Positions 13,728-64,000 of a stretch of DNA of 64,000 nt are shown here, piece after piece; positions within the stretch are counted from its first letter, which is position 1; every line of letters starts with the position of its first letter. This DNA comes from Brachionus manjavacas. Its lineage: Eukaryota; Rotifera; Eurotatoria; Ploima; Brachionidae. The stretch covers positions 8,122,001 to 8,186,000 of the forward strand of contig JAHQIY010000002.1 in assembly GCA_019054805.1 (NCBI GenBank). The letters run 5' to 3'. The translations under genes and the position numbers were made by a program. The notes under the pieces were generated by a model. It worked only from the letters and a program-made list of their open reading frames with translations, was not told the DNA's origin and did no database searches.

Positions 13728-14417
13728 GCACTAAAATTAAAAATAGCTTTACTTTTTTGTTCGTTTTATGCTAAAATAAAACATTGATAAATAAATTATT
13801 AATTAAAAACTTTTATTGCTAAATAAATCCATAATTTAAATTAAAAAAAATTCTATCAAGCCCTTCGACCCTCTCAGACGTGTTCGTCATATCTTTTTTA
13901 TTTCTGGCTGCGTCACTGATCCACAATCTAATAAAAATCTAAATTAGCAAATATACTTTGATTAAATGATGAGTGAATGAATGACTAATAATGATGATTT
14001 TCATAATAAATTTTAAATATCCTCTGCTAAATTAATCAAAGTTGATTTGTATCACAATTGAATGATGTTTCTTTTGGAAGCCTTACATACTCAAAAATCC
14101 AGAACCCATCTTTACCAAGTGTATGAATTAGAAATTAATTATTAAAAATGATCGGAGCCAAAAAATCTTGTACAAAGTTAAATTGGGAATGCTTTAAATT
14201 ATTTGCTTAATTCTCCTATTATAAAATAATTAATGCAGCCTATAACAAAACAAAAAAAAAAACAAACTAACAAAAAAATTATTTTTTAATTTTAAAAATA
14301 AAATTACGCTTAATTTTAATTTTAAATGGAACTCAATGATTATCATAAAAACCAAGTATAAAACAAGCACCTTTGTTATTTAAATTTTTATTTTTTTGAA
14401 ATTGATAATTTTACACA

Positions 14418-15236
14418 ATGAAAGAGCTGAGCAGCAACAATGACTTGAAATCGACCAAAAAAAAATTCACCTTAAAAAATTTCTCCTTTGTCGGCCTATT
14501 CACCTGCCTAATAACCTTAGTACTAGCCTTTTTGTTTAAAGACAACTTTCTGCTAGTGCTGTCCTATTTGGACAAAATATCGACCAAGAATCTCTACGAA
14601 TTTCACTTTATCCTCATTGTTTTGTTCATTTGTGTCTCGTTGCCGATTCTATGGGGCCACATGGTCTGCATACTCATTTGCTCTTATGTATTCTCGTTTT
14701 TCTACGGCTTCATACTCGTTTCAGTCTATTCAACTCTGGGCATGATCGTAGCTTACTTTGCGTGCCGCTTTGCCTTCTATGATTGCGCTCATCAACGAGT
14801 CAAGAACATTGCCTATCTCCAAGCGATCAACACTCTGCTGGAAAGCAAAGAAAGAGGCTTCCAGATCATTTTGCTATGCCGACTGATGCCGCTGCCATTC
14901 GGCTTGGCCAACACGCTTTTTTCAGTAACCGATGTCGACTTCAAAAAGTACATGACGGCCTCAATCATAGGACTAATGCCCAGCGAGCTCATTCTTTGCT
15001 ACATGGGCTCCACTCTCAAGTCCATGTCTGATGTTCTGGTCAATGAAAAAACAGCCAAAACAGCGTATTTGGTTTTTATTGCTCAGTTGTTTATTGCTGT
15101 GGGTGTTCTCTACTACATTCTCCGAGCTGCAAAAAAAGAGATCAATAAGCATTTGGAAAATAACAAATTCGAATTGCCTAATGATTGTCAATGTTCCAAT
15201 AATGACTGTGATAAGTGTCACTTAATCTCAGTATAA
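14418..15236 (+). CDS. TMEM64: TMEM64-like VTT-domain membrane protein
   Basis: A 272-residue intact single-exon gene. Predicted membrane segments lie at about residues 23-40, 61-80, 84-118 (hairpin) and 217-236. The VTT/SNARE-associated Golgi core runs from about 75 to 205. It includes the conserved block CRLMPLPFGLANTLFSVTD (154-172), then KKYMTASIIGLMPSELILCYMGSTL (split here: KKYMTAS, GLMPSE, YMGSTL), which matches the TMEM64 pattern. TMEM64 proteins are ER membrane proteins of the TVP38/DedA group. In mammals TMEM64 has been linked to SERCA2/calcium signalling; DedA relatives such as TMEM41B and VMP1 are lipid scramblases. The start is the first ATG after a stop-rich leader ('tttacacaATG'). 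The C-terminal tail holds a Cys cluster (CQCSNNDCDKCH). GC content is visibly higher than in the flanks, as expected for a gene under selection. The lack of introns could mean retrocopy origin or simple loss. Confidence 0.88.
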   Translation: MKELSSNNDLKSTKKKFTLKNFSFVGLFTCLITLVLAFLFKDNFLLVLSYLDKISTKNLYEFHFILIVLFICVSLPILWGHMVCILICSYVFSFFYGFILVSVYSTLGMIVAYFACRFAFYDCAHQRVKNIAYLQAINTLLESKERGFQIILLCRLMPLPFGLANTLFSVTDVDFKKYMTASIIGLMPSELILCYMGSTLKSMSDVLVNEKTAKTAYLVFIAQLFIAVGVLYYILRAAKKEINKHLENNKFELPNDCQCSNNDCDKCHLISV

Positions 15237-17598: not shown

Positions 17599-18756
17599 TA
17601 TTTTAAGAGTAACCTCACAACTAAGTTTTTAATTTTATTTTTTTGATTTCGTTGTTTTTTTTATTTTATTATTTTTTTTATTTTATTATTTTTTTATTTT
17701 TTAACTCCCCGAACGTCGTTCTCCCACGGCGAGGGAGTATATATATACTTGTTTTTTTTTATGTTTGAAGCTATTAAAGAAGAAGAGAAGAAAGATTGTT
17801 TTATTTTCTCTACCTCTCTCTCTCGATTTTATTTAATAGCGCACGCTTTTAAAATTGCTTAGAGAAAAATTAATGACCATTTTAGAAAGTAATTTTTTTA
17901 AGAAAAAAAGATCCTCTGATATTATCTTTCATTTGTTCATTATCAATCACATATTATTCAGCAGTTGATCTAAGAGCTTCTTTAAATAACGTCAATTTAA
18001 ATTCTAAAGACTCTTTAGCAAAAATCTAAATTAAATTTTGCTATAGATAAAAAAAAAGTACCTCTAAAAAGTAATAAAATATATTAAATTAAAAAGACAG
18101 TTTGAATTTAATTCCATTTTGTGGTTTAATTTGTAGTACTAATTATAAAATACTTGATATAAAATTTTAATAGCAAGTAATTGTTTTAAAACTTTTAAAA
18201 CTAAGTTAATCCTAAAAAAATTGCACGAGACTACCGAACAAGCTAAAGAGGGAAAATTATGTTAGATCCGATTAAAAAATCATCATAACTAATAGCTAAA
18301 ACCTTCAACTATGAATTAGCCACATGTAACATTATTTCGAGCCGACTGTTCTTTAATTTAATTACTAATCTTTCCGAGAAAAAAATGGCCGAAGAAAATA
18401 CCCAGTCAACTAATTTTTTCAGAAAAGTTGTTGAAATTTAATAGATCTTTAAAAATTTTAGTAATATTCTTTAAATTTTGTTGAAATTTATGGAACGCAA
18501 ATTTTAAATTTATGCAATATAAACAATATGCATGTAAAAAAATTCTGAAGGAGCTCAAACAGAAAACAAATAAAAAGATGATATTAAAAAACATAATTTA
18601 TTCTTGATTCTGACATAAATTTTAAATATTATTAAAAATTTCTATACTCCTTTAAGAATATTTTAATTTTTTTTCATTAAATCTCTGTCATTCTTATCTT
18701 AAGAAAAAATTATCATATTAACAGGTGTTTTATTTTAAGAAATACATTTTTCAGAA

Positions 18757-20691: not shown

Positions 20692-22014
20692 AAATTTTTA
20701 TTACGATTTTTAGTTTGTTTTTTATTTTTTTACATTTATTTTAAGATGATAGATCAAACTGAGCATGAGGACGAAATTCAGCCTCAACCAATAATTGATA
20801 TGATTAATCTGAGTTAATATTTTACTGATAATGATAATTTTTGATTCTGAATTTTTTAGTTTAATTTTTAATAATTTTTATAATTTAAGATTTGAATAAA
20901 ATAGAAAGAAGATTGGACGAAGTTGAAAAGAGTAACTGATAAATTAAATGTTTCTAAATTTTTAATTTAATTCGATTAATTTTAGATTTTAGTAAAAGAT
21001 TGGACGAAGTTGAAGAGAGGAACTGATAAATTAAATGTTTCTAAATTTTTAATTTAATTCGATTAATTTTAGATTTTAGTAAAAGATTGGACGAAGTTGA
21101 AAAGAGCATTCGATTAAGAAAAATTTTTCAAAATTCTTTTAAATGATTTAATTTTTTAATTATATTAAGTTCAAGAAAAACATGAAGAAAATAAAATTTT
21201 CATACTTCACGTTGATCATCGCCTTAGAAATCTGGAACAAGGTAAAAATAAACAAAATAAGTAACAAATTTTTTTGTAATCTTCCAATAATTCAATAGCT
21301 CTGCAATTGGATCAAACCATTGTCAATGATTTATCTGATTGGAAGAAGTTGAAGCTTATTTATAATTTCTTTTAATTTGACAGCTCTGCAATTGAATCAA
21401 ATCAACAGGGTAGAAAAAATATTAAGTTCGTTTGCAAAAGAAAAATCTAACTTATTTTTAATTTATTTCAGTCCAAAATCAGGCAGCTAACGGAATGACT
21501 TATAAAAATTGAAAATTTCAAAAATTTGTATATCATTCTTCAAATTTTTGTTTAAATAGCACCATTAGCAATTGAAAATCAGAGTAATTTTTTAAAAATT
21601 CATAAATCTAACTTTCTTCATTTATTTAAAGAAAACCGTGATTACACCCATCAATTAAACGGTAAAATTTGAAAACTTTAAAGTACTTAAAAATTTAAAA
21701 TTGAATTTAAAGAAATTTCTTCGACCCTAGGAGAAATAAGTACTGCAGCTAAGAATTTCAAAAAAATTGGTAAATCGATAAAAAAAATTCTTTTATTAAA
21801 ATATTTTTAAAACTTTAATATTGTTATTTCTGTTTATTCACATTAGATACAGTCATTGCGATTTTTCTAATTTCATTTTTGTAAACGAACTTATGTAAGA
21901 ATTTCCGTAAAGGCGCTCCATAGTTGGAAACTCAAATCATCGTACCCAGAACCAGATGGTAAAGGTAATTATTTTCCTTTACCATCATCCCATAAATTCC
22001 TTGCAAAAAAAAAG

Positions 22015-31432: not shown

Positions 31433-34400
31433 TTAAATAAATAATAAGTCAATTAATTTTCTTGGTGTGACTGGTTCATAGCTTGTCTCGTACAAGAGGC
31501 TATCCTGGCTGGATGAGCCGAAGCCGTATCGGCACGGATGGCCCATCTCTTTCCAAAACAAGCACTTGCACGACATGCACTTGTTGACCATGTCGGCATA
31601 GACCTCCTTCCTGCCGAATCTTTTTGTCAATTTAAAGTAAATTAACTTCCAATCTAGTGAGTCTATACCCTCTGTGTGCTGACTAGTGTTCTCGTTTTCA
31701 CCGTTTTGTTTTTTGAGCCTGATCACGTGTTGATTTATTTGAGATTGATTAAAGTGAAACTGGCACAAATTTTTCCACACAAGGATTTCGTTTGATATGG
31801 CCTGGTTTAAACTTTTGTTTGCCATTGACATATTTACAATATCGAGGCCCGAGTTGAGGCGTCTAAAAATTTCTAATTTGCAGTCACGTGGCATCACTTC
31901 AAAATAATTAGCTCCAATATTCTCCTTTAAATTTCTTAACTTGTCTTTCTTGGTCTCACTGTCCAACAACTCTTGCCACTTTGATATCTTATTCAAGTGG
32001 CTTTCACACAATTTTTGCGACCCGACATAGTGAAAATAGAAAAATATGGACTCTTGGATCTTTTTCTTCAGTGTTGCCAACAATTTACGCACTAGATTCG
32101 TGTTCTCTTTGCTCCTCAATGCTTTGAAAACAAAAATAAAAAACAAAAAATTTTTTTTAATAAAGTCTTTTTTTTCTTTCTTTAATTTTATTTTTAAATT
32201 TCAATTTATAAAAAAATCAGCTATCTTTTTGATAAAATGTAACAAAAAATATTAATTTTTAAACAGAAATAATCCAAAATCAGAGATAATAATAAAAATA
32301 ATAATAATGTGAGCTACAACAGACTTTAGCCTGTAGAGCAAGACTAAGAGCCTCACTATGGTAGCTAAAACGAGTTACAAAACATAAGATAAATGAACTA
32401 AAGAGAATGAGTTTTGTTTAATTGTAGTTGATAAGACGCTAAAAAATCATCCAAAGATAAATAGAAAAATAATTTTTTCTGCCTCTAATAAATAGTAGAA
32501 AATAAAATTTAATACTCGGCTAAATGAAAAAATAAATCTATTGCATAAAATTGAAGCCATTTTTGAAAAACTAATCTAAATGATTTTAAATCGATCTTTT
32601 AACAAAAAATTAATAATCTTTTTAATTAAAACCTATCAAAAAAATTATCAAAATAAATTATAAAGTATAACAAAGTATAAGAATTAAAATATCATCTTTT
32701 TATTACTTAATAATTGTAAATTTTGAATTAATTATTAATTTAGAATTGAAGCTTTTTAATCGTCTTTTATTAGTATAAACATAAATAAATTAGTTCCAGT
32801 TTTGGTACTTCTAATAGTTTGAAATTTTAGTGCTTCTAATTTTAAAAGAGATATTTTGAATTTGTTCATGTTAGATTTTTTTTCATGTTTGATCAAGAAA
32901 ATTCACTTTTTGACTTTATTTACATTTTAGTTTATAAAAATGTGAAAGAGAAAAAAATCTTGCCATATGCCAACTTAAGTTAATTAAGACAACATTAGAA
33001 AATAAAAATTCTAATCATTGCTTTGTAACTAGTTACATGCACAATAAGAGATTATATATTTTGATACAATAATGTTTTAAGTCCTGCTAATTTTTTTTAT
33101 TTTTTATGCAATCTAAAATTTAACTCTGGGTTTTTTTTTAATAAAAATGTTGACGCTTAAAAAACCTATAATATTAAACAACATTACCGAATATTATTGA
33201 ATTCACTGAATCGAATTTGATCGATTTTACATGGAATTTCTTCCTCCAAATTTTCTCCTTTTATAATTTCCCCAAAAAAGGTGGGAAATTTTAGAGGGGA
33301 AAATTCATGAAATACCGACTTGGTCAATTGCTCAAAATTATTAGTTTCAAACTGATGGCAAAATAAACTTTTAAAGTGCATTCATTCATCAAGTTAACCT
33401 AATTAAAAAATATAATAGTCTGAATTCAAATAATAAAAATTATTCTTAAAATTTTATTTTTATTATCTTGTCTAAAAATTTGATTCAATGGCTGATGAAA
33501 AATACCTTCTAGAAAGAAAAGTAGGCTTTTTTCTTTACTTATTTTAATTTTAAATCATTATTTCAAAAGATTAATTTTCAAACATACAAGCCTCATTCAT
33601 TGCTTGGACAAAAATTAATAAACATTTTAGAAAGTAATTTTTTTTAGAAAAAATGATCCTCTAAAATTATCTTTTAATGTTCAATATCAATCACATATTA
33701 TTCAGTCAGTTGACCTAAGAGCTTTCTTTAGAAGACTTTAGGAAAGAATTTAAATTAAATTTTAGTTTAAAATTTAATAAAAAAAGGGCTTCTTAAAAGT
33801 TATAAATATTACAGATTTAAAAAAAAAAACAGTTTGAATCCAATTCCATTTTGTGGTTTAATTTGTAGTACTAATTAGAAAGTGATTAATATTTGATATA
33901 AAATTTTAAAAGCTAGTAATTGTTTTAAAACTTTTAAAACTAAGTTACTCCTAAAAAAATTGCACGAGACTACCGAACAAGCTAAAGAGGGAAAATTATG
34001 TTAGATCCGATTAAAAAATCATCATAACTAATAGCTAAAACCTTCAACTATGAATTAGCCACATGTAACATTATTTCGAGCCGACTGTTCTTTAATTTAA
34101 TTACTAATCTTTCCGAGAAAAAAATGGCCGAAGAAAATATTAATGGAGAAGTAATTTTTAAGGGTTATGTTTTTTATTTTTTTACATTTATTTTAAGATG
34201 ATAGAGCTAACTGAGCATGAGAACGAAATTCAGCTTCAACCAATAATTGAAATGATTAATCTGAGTTAATATTTTACTGATAATGATAATTTTTGATTCT
34301 GAATTTTTTAGTTTAATTTTTAATAATTTTTATAATTTAAGATTTGAATAAAATAGAAAGAAGATTGGACGAAGTTGAAAAGAGTAACTGATAAATTAAA

Positions 34401-37216
34401 TGTTTCTAAATTTTTAATTTAATTCGATTAATTTTAGATTTTAGTAAAAGATTGGACGAAATTGAAAAGAGCATTCGATTAAGTAAAATTTTTCAAAATT
34501 CTTATAAATGATTTAATTTTATAATTATTAAGTTCAAGAAAAACATGAAGAAAATAAAATTTTCATACTTCACGTTGATCATCGCCTTAGAAATGTGGAA
34601 CAAGGTAAAAATAAACAAAATAAGTAACAAGCTTTTTTATAATCTTCTTTTTATTCAAAAGCTCTGCAATTGAATAAAACCATTGTCAACCAGGGTAAAA
34701 AAAATATTTAGTTCGTTTGCAAAAGAAAATTCTAACTTATTTTTAATTTATTCCAGTCCAAAATCAGGCAGCTAACGTGATGACTCAAAATCGTAAAATT
34801 TTAAAAATTTTGTAAATCATTTTTCAAATTTTTCTTTAAATAGCACCATTAGCAATTGAAAATCAGCGTAATTTTTTGAGCATTCATAAATCAAAATTTC
34901 ATCATTTTTTTAAAGAAAACCGTGATTACACCCATCAATTAGACGGTAAAATTTGAAAACTTTAAAGTACTAAAAAATTTAAAATTGAATTTAAAGAAAT
35001 TTCTTCGACCCTAGGAGAAATAAGTACTGCAGCCAAGAATTTCAAAAAAATTGGTAAATCGATAAAAAAAATTTTTTTTTTCAAATAATTTTTTAATACT
35101 TCTAATTTTTTTATGTTTGTTTATTATTTTCACTAATTATTAACTCAAACCTTTTATTATTTTCAAGTATTTTTTGCTCCTAACTTTTTTATAATTTTTA
35201 ATGATTTTTTTAAGGATTTATTATTATTTAACAAATTTAAAATAGAATAAAAAAATATTATTTTTTTATACTAGAAATTCACACTAACTGGTTTGAAAGC
35301 AATATTGTCCAAATTTTAATTTTGTTAGTTGGCATTGTTATGGTCATCCTATGTATAATAGCATTATTTCTGGGAAATGACCAAAAAAAAAAATCAAATT
35401 AATTTTTTTTCAAACAAATAAAGTTATTCAACTATTAAAGTTTTTTATTAATTATTTTCATTTATAATATTTTTAATTCTATTTAACATATAAAGCATCT
35501 TCCATTAAAATATCTAAAGATCTATCTTGAAAATTCCAATTTTTATTTGAAAAGAAAAAGAGAAATTATTCATTTTCTATCTCAGAAAAAACATTTGTCA
35601 CAAAATATCCGTACGAGTTTTCCTCTAATTTTTCTATAGAAAAATAAAAAGTTAATTTTTTTGTTAAAAATTGTTACAATTTTTGACATAATAGTTAAAA
35701 ACTCTGTATGTATGTTTTGTCTTTATGCCCTTATTTTTTTAACTAACAGATTAATTGGGAATCATATTTGTCAGTAGAAATCTTAACTTTTCCAGATCTT
35801 GTACGATCGTTTTGTGAATTTGTTTGATTTTAATAATCAAAATTAGTCTTAACGCATAAAAAAGTATTACATTGTGTTAAATTGAATAATAAAATTTATT
35901 AGTTTTTTGGCTAATTAAAAATTTAAAAGGAATTTTTTGGCAAAAATATCTTCATAAAAGATCAAAACTTGGTAAAAAGTTCGAGAATCCAAAATCAGTG
36001 TAAAATATAGAAAACATCTTTTTTTTACTGAATTTGTTCGGATAAGCGAGAATTCCGAGTTAAAGAAGATCGGACTAAAGAGGTTTGACTGTAATAATAA
36101 TCTTAAAAAATTAGTCATTTCATTACGAAAACTTAATAAATTTTAAAATTCAAAATTAATTTATATCAAGACTTAGGATTAATTATAGAATTAAATAAAA
36201 ATAAAAATAATTGTATTTTTTTAAATATTTGGTTCATTTAATATTGATCTTGAAAAAGTGTTATATTCATGAAGAATATTCATGAAAAAGTGTTATATAA
36301 TTTGAAGAATTTTTTTATCACACTGGGAATATGATCATAATATTATATTGGCAATAAATTTTTTATTGAACCAAATAAAGAAAATATTGGACCTGTATAT
36401 TTTTTTTTAGATTTGAAAATTTGTATCCTAAGTTATCTATTTCTGCTACGTCTACACTTTTAGAAGCTTTGTCTCTAGCCAGGCAGGTTTTAATTAATCA
36501 GGGTCTAGTCTAACTTAATTAAAATTCTTTCTTTTAATTCAAGTTCACATCACCAAGTGCTTAAGGTATAAAGTGCAATTAAATTTCTGATGCTTACCTT
36601 GAATGATCATCACTTTAATGATCATAAACAAAGTTCGCTGTCCATTTCCGCTGAGCAAATTGAGCTTTTCTTCAATTACAATTTTCATCAGCTGATAAAC
36701 ATAATTGAATCGTTTCAGGTCCCTGACTGCACCTGGCATATCCAGGCCATGCAAAACTTCGCTTACACTCAATTTTGGCGCGTTATTCTAAAAAAAATTT
36801 CTTTCATTTAAAACAAGTATTCAAGAAATGAGACAAACTTTTCTATCAGTAGATTTTTTTTCATGCAGGTATATACAAGGGGCTTTTTTGGTTGAAAGAG
36901 CATCGGAAAGCTCAATGGCGTCGCCGGACTCTGGCTCGGTTTGGTCAAGTTCGCAGTCAGAACTGGCCAATTCATCAAACAAATAAAAGAGAGCGTCATT
37001 TTTGTATTTTTTGTTGTCAGACCTTCGCACTGCATCGCTGCGGTACTCAATGTTGAGGCCGTTCAAAATGCTCTCCAAGGCCTTGCAGCGTTCCCAGCCT
37101 GTGTGAGTTTAAATTGAAAAATTTTCTATTTTAAAAATCTGCACAACAGTCATACCTTGGTCTGTCCGGATCCATTTTTCTCCATTTGATCGCCAGTCTT
37201 TGCCCAAATACGGCAT
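31433..37216 (-). CDS. FBXO25/32: F-box protein of the FBXO25/FBXO32 (atrogin-1) type
   Basis: Four exons on the minus strand: 37216-37156, 37098-36839, 36787-36598 and 32121-31433 (stop included). All introns are GT-AG and the 1200 coding bases stay in frame, giving 399 residues (vertebrate members about 355-370). Exon 1 reads MPYLGKDWRSNGEKWIRTDQ, the conserved N-terminus of both paralogues. Exon 2 starts GWERCKALESI and has an insert of acidic residues (ELDQTEPESGDAIEL). Exon 3 has LHGLDMPGAV and KRFNYVYQLMKI. Exon 4 has LVRKLLATLKKKIQ, FFYFHYVGSQKLCESHL, then the F-box (MPRDCKLEIFRRLNSGLDIV...WKNLCQFHF) and the family's C-terminal LDWKLIYFKLTKRFGRKE, FWKEMGHPC. As a substrate receptor it should join Skp1-Cul1 ubiquitin ligases; FBXO32 targets muscle proteins for degradation in vertebrates. 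A single copy here may represent the pre-duplication gene. The second intron is 51 nt; the third is 4476 nt and holds another gene on the opposite strand. Confidence 0.92.
33945..34123 (+). promoter_or_regulatory. Upstream/leader region of micro-exon copy B
   Basis: About 180 bp ending at the ATG, almost identical to 18210-18384 upstream of copy A, including GCACGAGACTACCGAAC and TTTCGAGCCGACTGTTC. Sequence further upstream (33600-33945) is also homologous but more diverged. It probably contains the promoter and 5' UTR. No TATA box can be singled out in such AT-rich DNA. Close identity may simply reflect recent duplication, since some introns are equally conserved. Confidence 0.5.
34124..35402 (+). 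CDS. Micro-exon gene, copy B (intact): coiled-coil, tail-anchored protein
   Basis: I do not recognise this family. Eleven exons: 34124-34150, 34198-34264, 34342-34383, 34438-34482, 34533-34604, 34662-34694, 34757-34792, 34844-34867, 34916-34945, 34997-35053, 35275-35402. Every junction is GT-AG and the 561 bases read through to one TAA: 186 residues. Exons 3-10 are 42, 45, 72, 33, 36, 24, 30 and 57 nt, all multiples of three with phase-1 introns on both sides. The protein opens MAEENINGE, then an acidic/Gln segment, then coiled-coil-like repeats (LNKIERRLDEVEK, NFSKRLDEIEKSIRL, HVDHRLRNVEQALQL), a Gln/Asn-rich middle, and one hydrophobic helix at about 155-178 with an 8-residue basic end (NDQKKKSN). 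This topology suggests a tail-anchored protein facing the cytosol; function unknown. It lies inside the F-box gene's last intron, opposite strand. The upstream ATG exon is inferred; translation could instead start at exon 2 (also ATG, same frame). Confidence 0.75.
35417..35422 (+). promoter_or_regulatory. Poly(A) signal of micro-exon copy B
   Basis: AATAAA 14 bases past the stop codon. The same signal is present in copy C. Confidence 0.55.
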
Positions 37217-48348: not shown

Positions 48349-49240
48349 TTACTTTTCTTTTTCGTCCGACCCAAAAACGAGATAAGAATTTAAAAGCTTT
48401 AGCAGTAAATAATTTCTTTTAAGCCATATATCTAGTTTAGTTTTAAAAATATTTTTTGTTTTAGAATTAACTATTTCTTCAGGCAGGCTATTCCAATTTT
48501 TAACCACACGATTTGTCAGGAAATGATAACGATGCATACAATTTTTGACATCTTCTCTTACCATACATTTTGTGTGTTTCCTCAAATTGTATCCTTGATT
48601 AGGAGAAAAGTTAATTCCATTAATAAGTTTTACACTTTCATATTCATTAATGATTTTACAGATATGAATTAAATCACCCCTCATTATTCTTACTTTGAAG
48701 TCCGTTAACTCTAAAAACTCAAGTCTTTTGTCATATTCGTAATTTCGAAGGAAAGGAATGATTCTTGTTTCTCTTCTTTGAACTTTTTCAAGTTTAACGA
48801 TTTCTTTTTCTGAATATGGGCACCAAGAACTTATTGCAAACTCTAATAGTGGCCGTACAAGCGCTGTATATAACATTCTCAAAGAGTCTGTATTTAAATA
48901 TCTGAAATTCTTGGCTATCATTCCTAGCATTCGGTTTGCACGATTTGTACAATACTTGACTTGGTTTGTCCATTTAAGGTCATTTTGAATATAGATGCCT
49001 AAATCCTTTTCAAGAGTCAAGAGTTTTAGATAGTTTTATAGTTCCATATTTATTAAAAAATCGTATAATAATAATTTGGATTTTTTGAACAAATATGCAT
49101 TACAAGACATTTTTCGATGTTTAAATCAAGAGACCAGGTGAAAAACCAGCTTCAAATATGATCTATATCTTTTTGAAGGAGAATGTTGTCTTTTACATCA
49201 TTAACAATTGATAATATTTTTGTATCATCAGTTTGTTTCA
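48349..49240 (-). pseudogene. LINE D RT C-terminal fragment (left arm)
   Basis: Open frame 49020-48349: LEKDLGIYIQNDLKWTNQV, LRMLYTALVRPLLEFAIS, EKVQRRETRIIPFLRNYEYD, LELTDFKVRIMRGDLIHI, FLTNRVVKNWNSLPEEIV. Upstream to about 49240 the palm edge is visible in broken frames (TDDTKILSIVNDVKD, LDLNIEKCLVMH). Different family from LINEs A and B. Confidence 0.85.
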
Positions 49241-50434: not shown

Positions 50435-51390
50435 TAGTAGTAGAATTAGTAGAAGTTCTTGCTACGACACCTAACATGTAAATTGTCTTAGCCCATCACC
50501 GCCTATTGGCCGTGTAGAGCTGTAGCAGCCGATTCCATTGAACTTATCTAAAGCCATTTTAAAATTTGCTGTTGACTTGGATTTCACCACATTTTCTGGC
50601 AACTTATTCCAATGCGGAACTACTCTGTTTGAGAAAAATACATGTCTGACTGCAGCTACAAAATCGTTTCTAGTTTGAGCTAGAAAACTTTCTCTCTGGA
50701 CTCTGATGCAATTTCCTCTTAACGCCTCGGCAGGTCTCTTGTTTTCTGATTTATTCACTAGATTCTTGGTCAAGCTTCCCTTTTCTATTCCATTCATCAA
50801 TTTGTACATTTCAATCAAGTTCCCTCTCACTCTTCTTTCAATCAGCTTTGTCAGTCCTAATTTTGTCAGCCTCATTTCATACGGCATGTTTCTTACAGAC
50901 AAAGGTATATTTGTTGCCCTCTCTTGTACCTTTTCCAACGCATTCACGTCCATTTTCATACTTGGATTCCAAACCTGCACTGCGTAATCTAGGTGGGGTC
51001 TCACCATGGATATAAACAATCTTACCCAAAATCTTTCCTCTCTACTTGTAAACGTTCGCTTTAGCATTCCATGCACCCTACTCGCTTTCGCTCAAGCACT
51101 TTTCACTTGGCTGGTCCATTTTAAATCTTATGAAACCATCACTCCAAGATCCCTTTCACACTTCTTTCAGTGATCACTAGTATAACATTCCTGTTTCTTT
51201 TTTGTGTATATTTATGGCTTTCATTTAGTCTTCCGAAATGCATTACTTTACATTTGTTAGCACAAAGTTCCATACGCCAATCCTCTATCCATTGACATAC
51301 TGCATCCAGATCTTTCTGTAACATCGCTCTCTCATAAACATTAAAAGAAGCTTGGAATAGAGCACAAAATTGTTTTAAGATAGACAATCA
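50435..51390 (-). pseudogene. LINE C fragment (left arm)
   Basis: 51387-51139: MLQKDLDAVCQWIEDWRMEL, CANKCKVMHFGRLN. 51076-50471: FISMVRPHLDYAVQVWNPS, LEKVQERATNIPL, MRLTKLGLTKLIERRVRGNL, FFSNRVVPHWNKLPENVV. A frame break lies near 51100. The 3' end has CTACTA-type repeats (about 50435-50450), like LINE B. Confidence 0.85.
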
Positions 51391-52696: not shown

Positions 52697-53645
52697 TTGT
52701 CTATCTTAAAACAATTTTGTGCTCTATTCCAAGCTTCTTTTAATGTTTATGAGAGAGCGATGTTACAGAAAGATCTGGATGCAGTATGTCAATGGATAGA
52801 GGATTGGCGTATGGAACTTTGTGCTAACAAATGTAAAGTAATGCATTTCGGAAGACTAAATGAAAGCCATAAATATACACAAAAAAGAAACAGGAATGTT
52901 ATACTAGTGATCACTGAAAGAAGTGTGAAAGGGATCTTGGAGTGATGGTTTCATAAGATTTAAAATGGACCAGCCAAGTGAAAAGTGCTTGAGCGAAAGC
53001 GAGTAGGGTGCATGGAATGCTAAAGCGAACGTTTACAAGTAGAGAGGAAAGATTTTGGGTAAGATTGTTTATATCCATGGTGAGACCCCACCTAGATTAC
53101 GCAGTGCAGGTTTGGAATCCAAGTATGAAAATGGACGTGAATGCGTTGGAAAAGGTACAAGAGAGGGCAACAAATATACCTTTGTCTGTAAGAAACATGC
53201 CGTATGAAATGAGGCTGACAAAATTAGGACTGACAAAGCTGATTGAAAGAAGAGTGAGAGGGAACTTGATTGAAATGTACAAATTGATGAATGGAATAGA
53301 AAAGGGAAGCTTGACCAAGAATCTAGTGAATAAATCAGAAAACAAGAGACCTGCCGAGGCGTTAAGAGGAAATTGCATCAGAGTCCAGAGAGAAAGTTTT
53401 CTAGCTCAAACTAGAAACGATTTTGTAGCTGCAGTCAGACATGTATTTTTCTCAAACAGAGTAGTTCCGCATTGGAATAAGTTGCCAGAAAATGTGGTGA
53501 AATCCAAGTCAACAGCAAATTTTAAAATGGCTTTAGATAAGTTCAATGGAATCGGCTGCTACAGCTCTACACGGCCAATAGGCGGTGATGGGCTAAGACA
53601 ATTTACATGTTAGGTGTCGTAGCAAGAACTTCTACTAATTCTACT
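52697..53645 (+). pseudogene. LINE C fragment (right arm)
   Basis: Mirror of the left-arm LINE C: frames 52697-52945 and 53008-53613 encode the same residues, with the same break between them. Keeping identical lesions on both sides shows the arms were copied after the LINE died. Confidence 0.85.
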
Positions 53646-54844: not shown

Positions 54845-55744
54845 ACAAACTGATGATACAAAAATATTATCAATTGTTAATGATGTAAAAGACAACATTC
54901 TCCTTCAAAAAGATATAGATCATATTTGAAGCTGGTTTTTCACCTGGTCTCTTGATTTAAACATCGAAAAATGTCTTGTAATGCATATTTGTTCAAAAAA
55001 TCCAAATTATTATTATACGATTTTTTAATAAATATGGAACTATAAAACTATCTAAAACTCTTGACTCTTGAAAAGGATTTAGGCATCTATATTCAAAATG
55101 ACCTTAAATGGACAAACCAAGTCAAGTATTGTACAAATCGTGCAAACCGAATGCTAGGAATGATAGCCAAGAATTTCAGATATTTAAATACAGACTCTTT
55201 GAGAATGTTATATACAGCGCTTGTACGGCCACTATTAGAGTTTGCAATAAGTTCTTGGTGCCCATATTCAGAAAAAGAAATCGTTAAACTTGAAAAAGTT
55301 CAAAGAAGAGAAACAAGAATCATTCCTTTCCTTCGAAATTACGAATATGACAAAAGACTTGAGTTTTTAGAGTTAACGGACTTCAAAGTAAGAATAATGA
55401 GGGGTGATTTAATTCATATCTGTAAAATCATTAATGAATATGAAAGTGTAAAACTTATTAATGGAATTAACTTTTCTCCTAATCAAGGATACAATTTGAG
55501 GAAACACACAAAATGTATGGTAAGAGAAGATGTCAAAAATTGTATGCATCGTTATCATTTCCTGACAAATCGTGTGGTTAAAAATTGGAATAGCCTGCCT
55601 GAAGAAATAGTTAATTCTAAAACAAAAAATATTTTTAAAACTAAACTAGATATATGGCTTAAAAGAAATTATTTACTGCTAAAGCTTTTAAATTCTTATC
55701 TCGTTTTTGGGTCGGACGAAAAAGAAAAGGAAAAAAAAGAATAG
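54844..55744 (+). pseudogene. LINE D RT C-terminal fragment (right arm)
   Basis: Mirror of 48349-49240; open frame 55061-55744. It runs a few residues further (KEKEKKE) because arm homology ends at about 55728. Confidence 0.85.
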
Positions 55745-63334: not shown

Positions 63335-63690
63335 TAGAAAATTAAAAGTTGGGCGAAGCAGGTTAATTTTGCAAAATAGATGAATCTATGTTCTTCTAAG
63401 TCAAACACTTAAAGGGTGAAAAATTAATTTTAATTTTCTTTAATTTTTATTATTTTGATGCTGAAAGGCAAATATTTAAGTAAGAGCGCATTTGGGAATT
63501 TGGGATTGTTAAAAGTGTAATACCAAGTCAACCAGATTAGAGAAAATGCTATTTCTAAAGCTCCTTCAAATTAAAAAAAAAGTTATTAACTAATTTTTAT
63601 ATCAATTTCGAGAATTAAAAATCCTATTAAATAGTATCTTTCAATTTGTTCACTTAATTCTATTTTGGTTTACCCTAATTATATTTTTAA
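63335..63690. mobile_element. Long-TIR element, internal piece (copy 6)
   Basis: Inverse of about 44500-44870 (GATGAATCTATGTTCTTC, CAAATATTTAAGTAAGAGCG, GTAATACCAAGTCAACCAG) with few differences. Ends exactly where the micro-exon copy C flank begins. Confidence 0.7.
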
Positions 63691-64000
63691 CAAAAAAATT
63701 AACTTTATATTTTTCTATAGAAAAATTAGAGGAAAACTCGTACGGATATTTTGTGACAAATGTTTTTTCTGAGATAGAAAATGAATAATTTCTCTTTTTC
63801 TTTTCAAATAAAAATTGGCATTTTCAAGATAGATCTTTAGATATTTTAATGGAAGATGCTTTATATGTTAAATAGAATTTAAAAATATTATTAATGAAAA
63901 TAATTAATAAAAAACTTTAATAGTTGAATAACTTTATTTGTTTGAAAAAAAATTAATTTGATTTTTTTTTTTGGTCATTTCCCAGAAATAATGCTATTAT
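63691..64000 (-). CDS. Micro-exon gene family, copy C (3' end only)
   Basis: Reverse complement of 35350-35671 with about one substitution per 100 bp. The last 41 bases of the window encode the family's C-terminus (IIALFLGND...KKKSN then TAA, with the same 11-A run), followed by the same AATAAA and 3' flank. The rest of the gene lies beyond base 64000. No lesion is seen in the part present. Confidence 0.7.

Follow-up and report, generated by a model that had tools for sequence, protein, structure and literature searches.

Among described systems, the closest to the locus reported here are the micro-exon genes (MEGs) of schistosomes. PMC4350168 defines these by most of the coding sequence lying in very small symmetric exons, by a signal peptide and by alternatively spliced variants; it states that they "appear to be restricted" to platyhelminths and, for three of them, gives dN/dS values exceeding 1 in the mature portion. 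Closer in host are the mmr mate-recognition genes of Brachionus, which, according to PMC2746195, resemble the present family in being multi-copy orphans whose members vary in repeat number and differ from it in showing no introns, in starting with a signal peptide and in having repeats of 87-92 codons. A 26-base mmr-b primer of B. manjavacas given in that same text falls at C7:5017989, 5027191 and 5124063 of the genome with 1, 0 and 1 mismatches, the first two places about 9 kb apart and the third about 97 kb beyond.

The window, by which we mean the whole 64,000-nt stretch of Brachionus manjavacas DNA that was analysed, lies on contig C2, and an earlier note on it had described one gene (gene A, or copy A; Table 1) and likened it to schistosome MEGs. 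Brachionus is free-living. Our comparison, made on the exon plan and on the criteria given above rather than on MEG protein sequences, upheld the likeness in exon plan, since coding lies mostly in small symmetric exons, there are several copies and the product has one hydrophobic segment. Exons of 24-72 nt divisible by three make up 9 of 11 (366 of 561 nt), which fits if "very small" is read generously, since only 150 of 561 coding nt fall in exons no longer than 36 nt. The likeness did not extend to the signal peptide, as gene A encodes no hydrophobic N-terminal stretch by hydropathy, nor to a flatworm host, the animal being, as the exact match of the mmr-b primer bears out, a Brachionus rotifer, taken here as one of the B. 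plicatilis complex, nor to the rate of protein change (dN/dS about 0.33), and the product is, unlike those of MEGs, rich in coil.

Gene model and paralogs of copy A

The proposed model of eleven GT-AG exons joining into a single 186-codon frame was reproduced exon by exon. All 10 introns run GT..AG and span 47-221 nt, exons measure 24-128 nt, and none of the 20 splice borders is damaged, nor is the frame broken, over a coding total of 561 nt (186 codons plus TAA). Exons 3-10 are each divisible by three, introns 2-10 are all in phase 1, and G+C stands at 0.141 in introns versus 0.317 in exons. The argument that so many junctions would hardly keep frame by chance fared less well and is weak alone: among 1000 dinucleotide shuffles of the gene A stretch, scored by the longest in-frame exon chain in each, 167 reached at least 561 nt when any GT and any AG were allowed, and 46 reached the 621 nt found in the real stretch under those rules. 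Under strict borders (donors GTAA/GTTA, acceptors TAG/AAG/CAG), a set chosen post hoc after gene A had been seen, 0 of 1000 shuffles attained 561 nt (maximum 516), and when 84 pieces of the window, each 1.5 kb long, were scored (42 places on both strands, surroundings of gene A included), 3 did so, all three away from gene A. Joining into an open frame is not by itself a convincing case for gene A, and we accept it as real because a paralog on contig C7, spliced at its own borders, aligns with it colinearly.

Table 1. Positions, within the window, of gene A, its copies and the upstream exon-like segments.
Feature	Positions	Strand	Description
Copy D, 5' part	17854..18400	+	includes exon-1 start; about 2.3 kb between exon 1 and exon 2
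Copy D, decayed	20706..21838	+	counterparts of exons 2-10; three exon-3/4 units
Unit common to A and B	33334..35671	+	B = C2:8187870-8190144; copy C has the same 3' boundary
E1'	33488..33520	+	MADEKYLLERK; 33 nt, phase 0, GT donor
E1b	33570..33633	+	64 nt, phase 0 to 1, AG/GT borders
Gene A	34124..35402	+	11 exons, 186-codon frame; from frame and splice borders, copy comparison, C7 alignment
Exon 1	34124..34150	+	27 nt, phase 0, MAEENINGE; C7 and C17 counterparts likewise 27 nt
Exon 2	34198..34264	+	67 nt, phase 0 to 1
Exon 3	34342..34383	+	42 nt (14 residues), coil unit
Exon 4	34438..34482	+	45 nt (15 residues), coil unit akin to exon 3 (71% self-match)
Exon 5	34533..34604	+	72 nt, coil
Exon 6	34662..34694	+	33 nt
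Exon 7	34757..34792	+	36 nt
Exon 8	34844..34867	+	24 nt, Pro-Pro hinge
Exon 9	34916..34945	+	30 nt
Exon 10	34997..35053	+	57 nt, membrane-proximal short coil; counterpart in C19 array
Exon 11	35275..35402	+	128 nt, NW juxtamembrane motif, hydrophobic helix, short tail, stop
Copy C, 3' end	63683..64000	-	5' side truncated within intron 4; extends past the window

The C7 paralog has nine exons with GT-AG borders and 181 codons, its first intron being in phase 0 and all the others in phase 1. Its protein follows that of gene A from the very start through the whole membrane helix at 34% identity (E 2e-24), a value measured with the upstream MADEKYLFGKN as exon 1, the later model using a 27-nt exon 1; both candidate first exons have an open frame. 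The NW juxtamembrane motif and the membrane helix form the most conserved block between the two proteins. On contig C17 a further relative keeps all 8 exons that precede its broken terminal one in the same phases as C7, with an in-frame TAG seen by eye in that last exon.

Divergence between copies bears on whether a protein was maintained. Against copy B, gene A differs at 12 of 528 exon positions (2.3%) and 42 of 661 intron positions (6.4%; p 0.0007), counts that omit 33 deleted exon bases and 57 deleted intron bases, and against copy D at 18 of 406 exon versus 44 of 551 intron positions (p 0.03). For A and B, dN/dS is 0.33 and falls short of significance on its own (5 of 102 synonymous versus 7 of 423 other sites, p 0.06). 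Their 5' flanks differ at 10 of 721 positions, fewer than the exons, suggesting that the 5' half was exchanged recently. Between C7 and C17 dN/dS is likewise 0.33 (bootstrap 0.15-0.59; 37 of 67 synonymous versus 68 of 254 other sites, p 2e-5), with C7 exons 3 and 9, four exon-8 codons and the end of C17 exon 2 that has no match all excluded, and it is 0.36 when restricted to the five exons of equal length. Raw divergence of this pair is equal in exons (122 of 391) and introns (147 of 547; p 0.16), in a comparison where the AT-rich introns align too readily. Because of the phases of the C7 paralog, the A-B contrast between exons and introns and the C7-C17 dN/dS, this is, as judged from sequence, a family that made a protein on which purifying selection acted. 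Copy A itself appears to be a genuine coding gene, still intact, in this Brachionus rotifer. It was confirmed through its relatives and not through a known domain, and genes of such small exons in AT-rich DNA are easily overlooked by gene finders.

Family copies and upstream segments

Relatives were sought by protein and DNA searches of the 114-Mb genome in 61 contigs, with all counts being lower bounds. The description of a single gene stood for the gene itself and had overlooked both its family copies in the window (D and the end of C) and the exon-like segments upstream. Copy B lies 32 kb downstream of gene A and matches it in two aligned stretches at 93.8% and 94.8% identity, having lost the acceptor AG of exon 10. 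Copy C is inverted and 99.5% identical to B across 1709 bases, and copy D lacks donors after 21018, 21117 and 21510, with no exon 11 found for it within the window. Dispersed relatives occur on C7, C17, C28, C1 and C3, with fragments at C2:8228372, and by eye D, C17, C28, C1, C3 and these fragments are broken. The whole is a birth-and-death family in which A and C7 are apparently intact, B nearly so and several members decaying. A reading of the A/B/C unit as a mobile element was rejected: a search at its ends found no terminal inverted repeats, the best inverted match between one end and the other covering 13 bases, and A and B have different flanking sequences. A match at C24:496903 (E 0.082) was likewise dismissed as a relative, its DNA likeness being unconvincing.

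Upstream of exon 1, E1' has counterparts of equal length with a GT donor on C7 and C17 and one without a donor on C28, and E1b has 52-nt counterparts in the same phase on C7 and C17, where the protein likeness is weak (by eye). By phase E1b could join exon 3 and E1' could join exon 2, and the two may serve as alternative first exons or make up a small gene of their own. The bdelloid spliced leader is absent from this genome at up to 2 mismatches, which disfavours reading the two exon sets as an operon; PMC1925144 likewise detected no trans-spliced leader in B. plicatilis, allowing that a small subset could remain. A further segment near 33944-34070 resembles stretches of C7, C17 and C28 by eye, and window 33887-34019 matches C2:8228372.

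Counterparts of exons 10 and 11 also occur, near-identical, at ten places of a tandem and inverted array of nearly identical units of about 1.48 kb at C19:598000-627700, behind a different candidate N-terminal exon (by eye). Two of the ten carry an early stop or a shifted end in exon 11, and two others differ by one base at the end of exon 10. A 52-residue query from this array found at least 23 genome places, three of them outside C19, namely copies A, B and C (E 0.014-0.035).

Predicted coil, anchor and cassettes of the product

By hydropathy the gene A protein has no hydrophobic N terminus, 19-residue windows starting before residue 115 reaching at most 0.23, and its profile peaks at 3.5 at residue 158 (19-residue window), in a strong hydrophobic helix that starts at about residue 155 and is followed by a short lysine-rich tail of about nine residues. 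Ahead of the helix lie a long heptad coil at about 28-105, a Pro-Pro hinge at 108-109 and a short membrane-proximal coil at 117-144, and heptad periodicity, tested in segments picked by eye, was reached by 1 of 5000 shuffles for 28-105 and by 0 of 5000 for 117-144. The corresponding C7 test gave 38 of 5000 for residues 26-84 and no periodicity for 96-134 (1026 of 5000). The C7 anchor reaches 2.7 at residue 148, and a second, moderate stretch (KD 1.49) lies at residue 99, so that the case for just one membrane segment is clear for A and less so for C7, whose topology may differ. Tail anchoring, taken as one membrane helix near the C terminus without a signal peptide, is thus what hydropathy gives for A, and significant heptad periodicity, taken as the mark of a coiled coil, is found in A and in C7 26-84. 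The idea of a tail-anchored coiled coil with one membrane helix was in this way supported, the heptad test bearing on the coil and only hydropathy on the anchor; of the earlier note's broader suggestion of a secreted or membrane protein, the membrane part agrees with the sequence and the secreted part finds no support in it.

That the protein belongs to no recognised family was borne out by searches with the translation, including the profile (HMM) check that had been proposed. Nothing exceeded the cut-off in Pfam (best DUF6548, E 0.0049, 17.2 versus 27.3 bits) or NCBIfam (best E 0.0011, 17.9 versus 172.7 bits), phmmer against PDB gave no fit (best E 0.65), and the C7 and C17 proteins had no Pfam match above cut-off (best E 0.14). 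PDB profile matches (best 60 of 164, E up to 10) were rejected as coil-on-coil likeness; the first-ranked was an influenza HA2 chain (E 0.0033) over a short coil stretch at positions 16-66, and others were a flagellar ring protein (E 0.0093) and Brk1 (E 0.027). Rfam gave no family at gathering score, 131 pattern matches on viral contigs yielded 0 confirmed, and a literature search, with most subscription journals outside its reach, found no paper on Brachionus and tail-anchored proteins and two that name Brachionus and micro-exons once each. The family is genuine by these comparisons and without a name as far as the searches reach, and its members, from a rotifer, are probably coiled-coil proteins with a tail anchor.

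Exon 3 is akin to exon 4, and at 14 and 15 residues each covers about two heptads. Such units number one in B, two in A and three in the pseudogene D, the one in B being a 54-nt exon in which the start of exon 3 is fused to the end of exon 4. All units in A and B are in phase 1, and because this phase is kept, unequal exchange would alter coil length without a frameshift.

Competing readings and neighbouring features

We consider it probable that gene A is a real gene for a tail-anchored coiled rod whose length is set by phase-1 cassettes. The protein would be made in the cytosol and inserted into a membrane after translation as a tail-anchored protein, its coil would oligomerise and face the cytosol from an internal membrane as a rod, tether or scaffold, and the frame-neutral phase-1 exons would act as cassettes, gain or loss of an exon-3/4 unit lengthening or shortening the rod by about two heptads with the frame kept. 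The conserved NW motif and membrane helix may have a role beyond anchoring. We infer that the protein serves as a rod or tether fixed to a membrane, and that its adjustable length matters functionally. If true, the use of exons as heptad cassettes would be a clear natural case of in-register change in coil length through unequal exon exchange, and would suggest that flatworms are not alone in having the micro-exon gene plan.

It is doubtful, to our minds, that copy A, as part of a family in decay, has instead died recently or hardly functions any more, its frame open for want of time. Most other copies being broken, the truncation of C, the lost acceptor in B and a region rich in retroelement frames (by eye; one Pfam-confirmed) would all fit such decay, but copy A retains every splice border and its frame, its exons have diverged more slowly than its introns against B, and C7, long diverged, is intact too. 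Splicing offers another route to variation: frame-neutral exons would allow it, which makes a variable gene A product possible, and at a locus resembling a micro-exon gene their alternative use together with two first-exon pairs could yield variant membrane proteins. Exons 3-10 are indeed all phase 1-1, and the upstream pair has its same-phase counterparts in C7 and C17; however, the hydrophobic N terminus is absent, dN/dS is about 0.33, and the two upstream exons could form a small gene of their own or be a duplicate that goes unused, the C28 counterpart of E1' being donorless, and we hold this account to be improbable.

A tail anchor, a membrane-proximal coil and a Trp at the membrane edge together give what we take to be a resemblance to synaptobrevin. 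Tail-anchored SNAREs (synaptobrevin PF00957, V-SNARE PF05008) share with the family a coil, a C-terminal anchor and this Trp just ahead of the membrane, and gene A has a weak PF05008 match (E 0.029, 15.2 versus 25.9 bits), but the family proteins have no profile match over cut-off, C7 and C17 show no PF05008 match, 0 of the 18 genome places listed for PF00957 is a family locus, and in A the Pro-Pro hinge interrupts the would-be SNARE motif. A strongly diverged SNARE-like vesicle protein therefore has, in our estimate, a very small chance of being correct. The tail-anchored rod with length-setting cassettes could also be part of something larger, an independent rotifer system of micro-exon diversity in which two first-exon sets, eight frame-neutral cassettes and gene duplication tune both rod length and choice of partner, with the module of exons 10-11 set on another N terminus in the C19 array; we regard this extension as quite improbable.

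Elsewhere in the window, retroelement-like frames at 50471-51091 and 52993-53613, and at 48349-49035 and 55046-55744, have identical translations in opposite orientation, suggesting that the right part of the window holds a large palindrome. About 1 kb upstream of the A/B unit, positions 31436-32200 on the minus strand carry a weak F-box-like match (E 0.00016, 21.8 versus 24.3 bits). A single frame at 14409-15233 encodes a VTT-domain membrane protein (PF09335, E 2.1e-17) and is probably an ordinary cellular gene.
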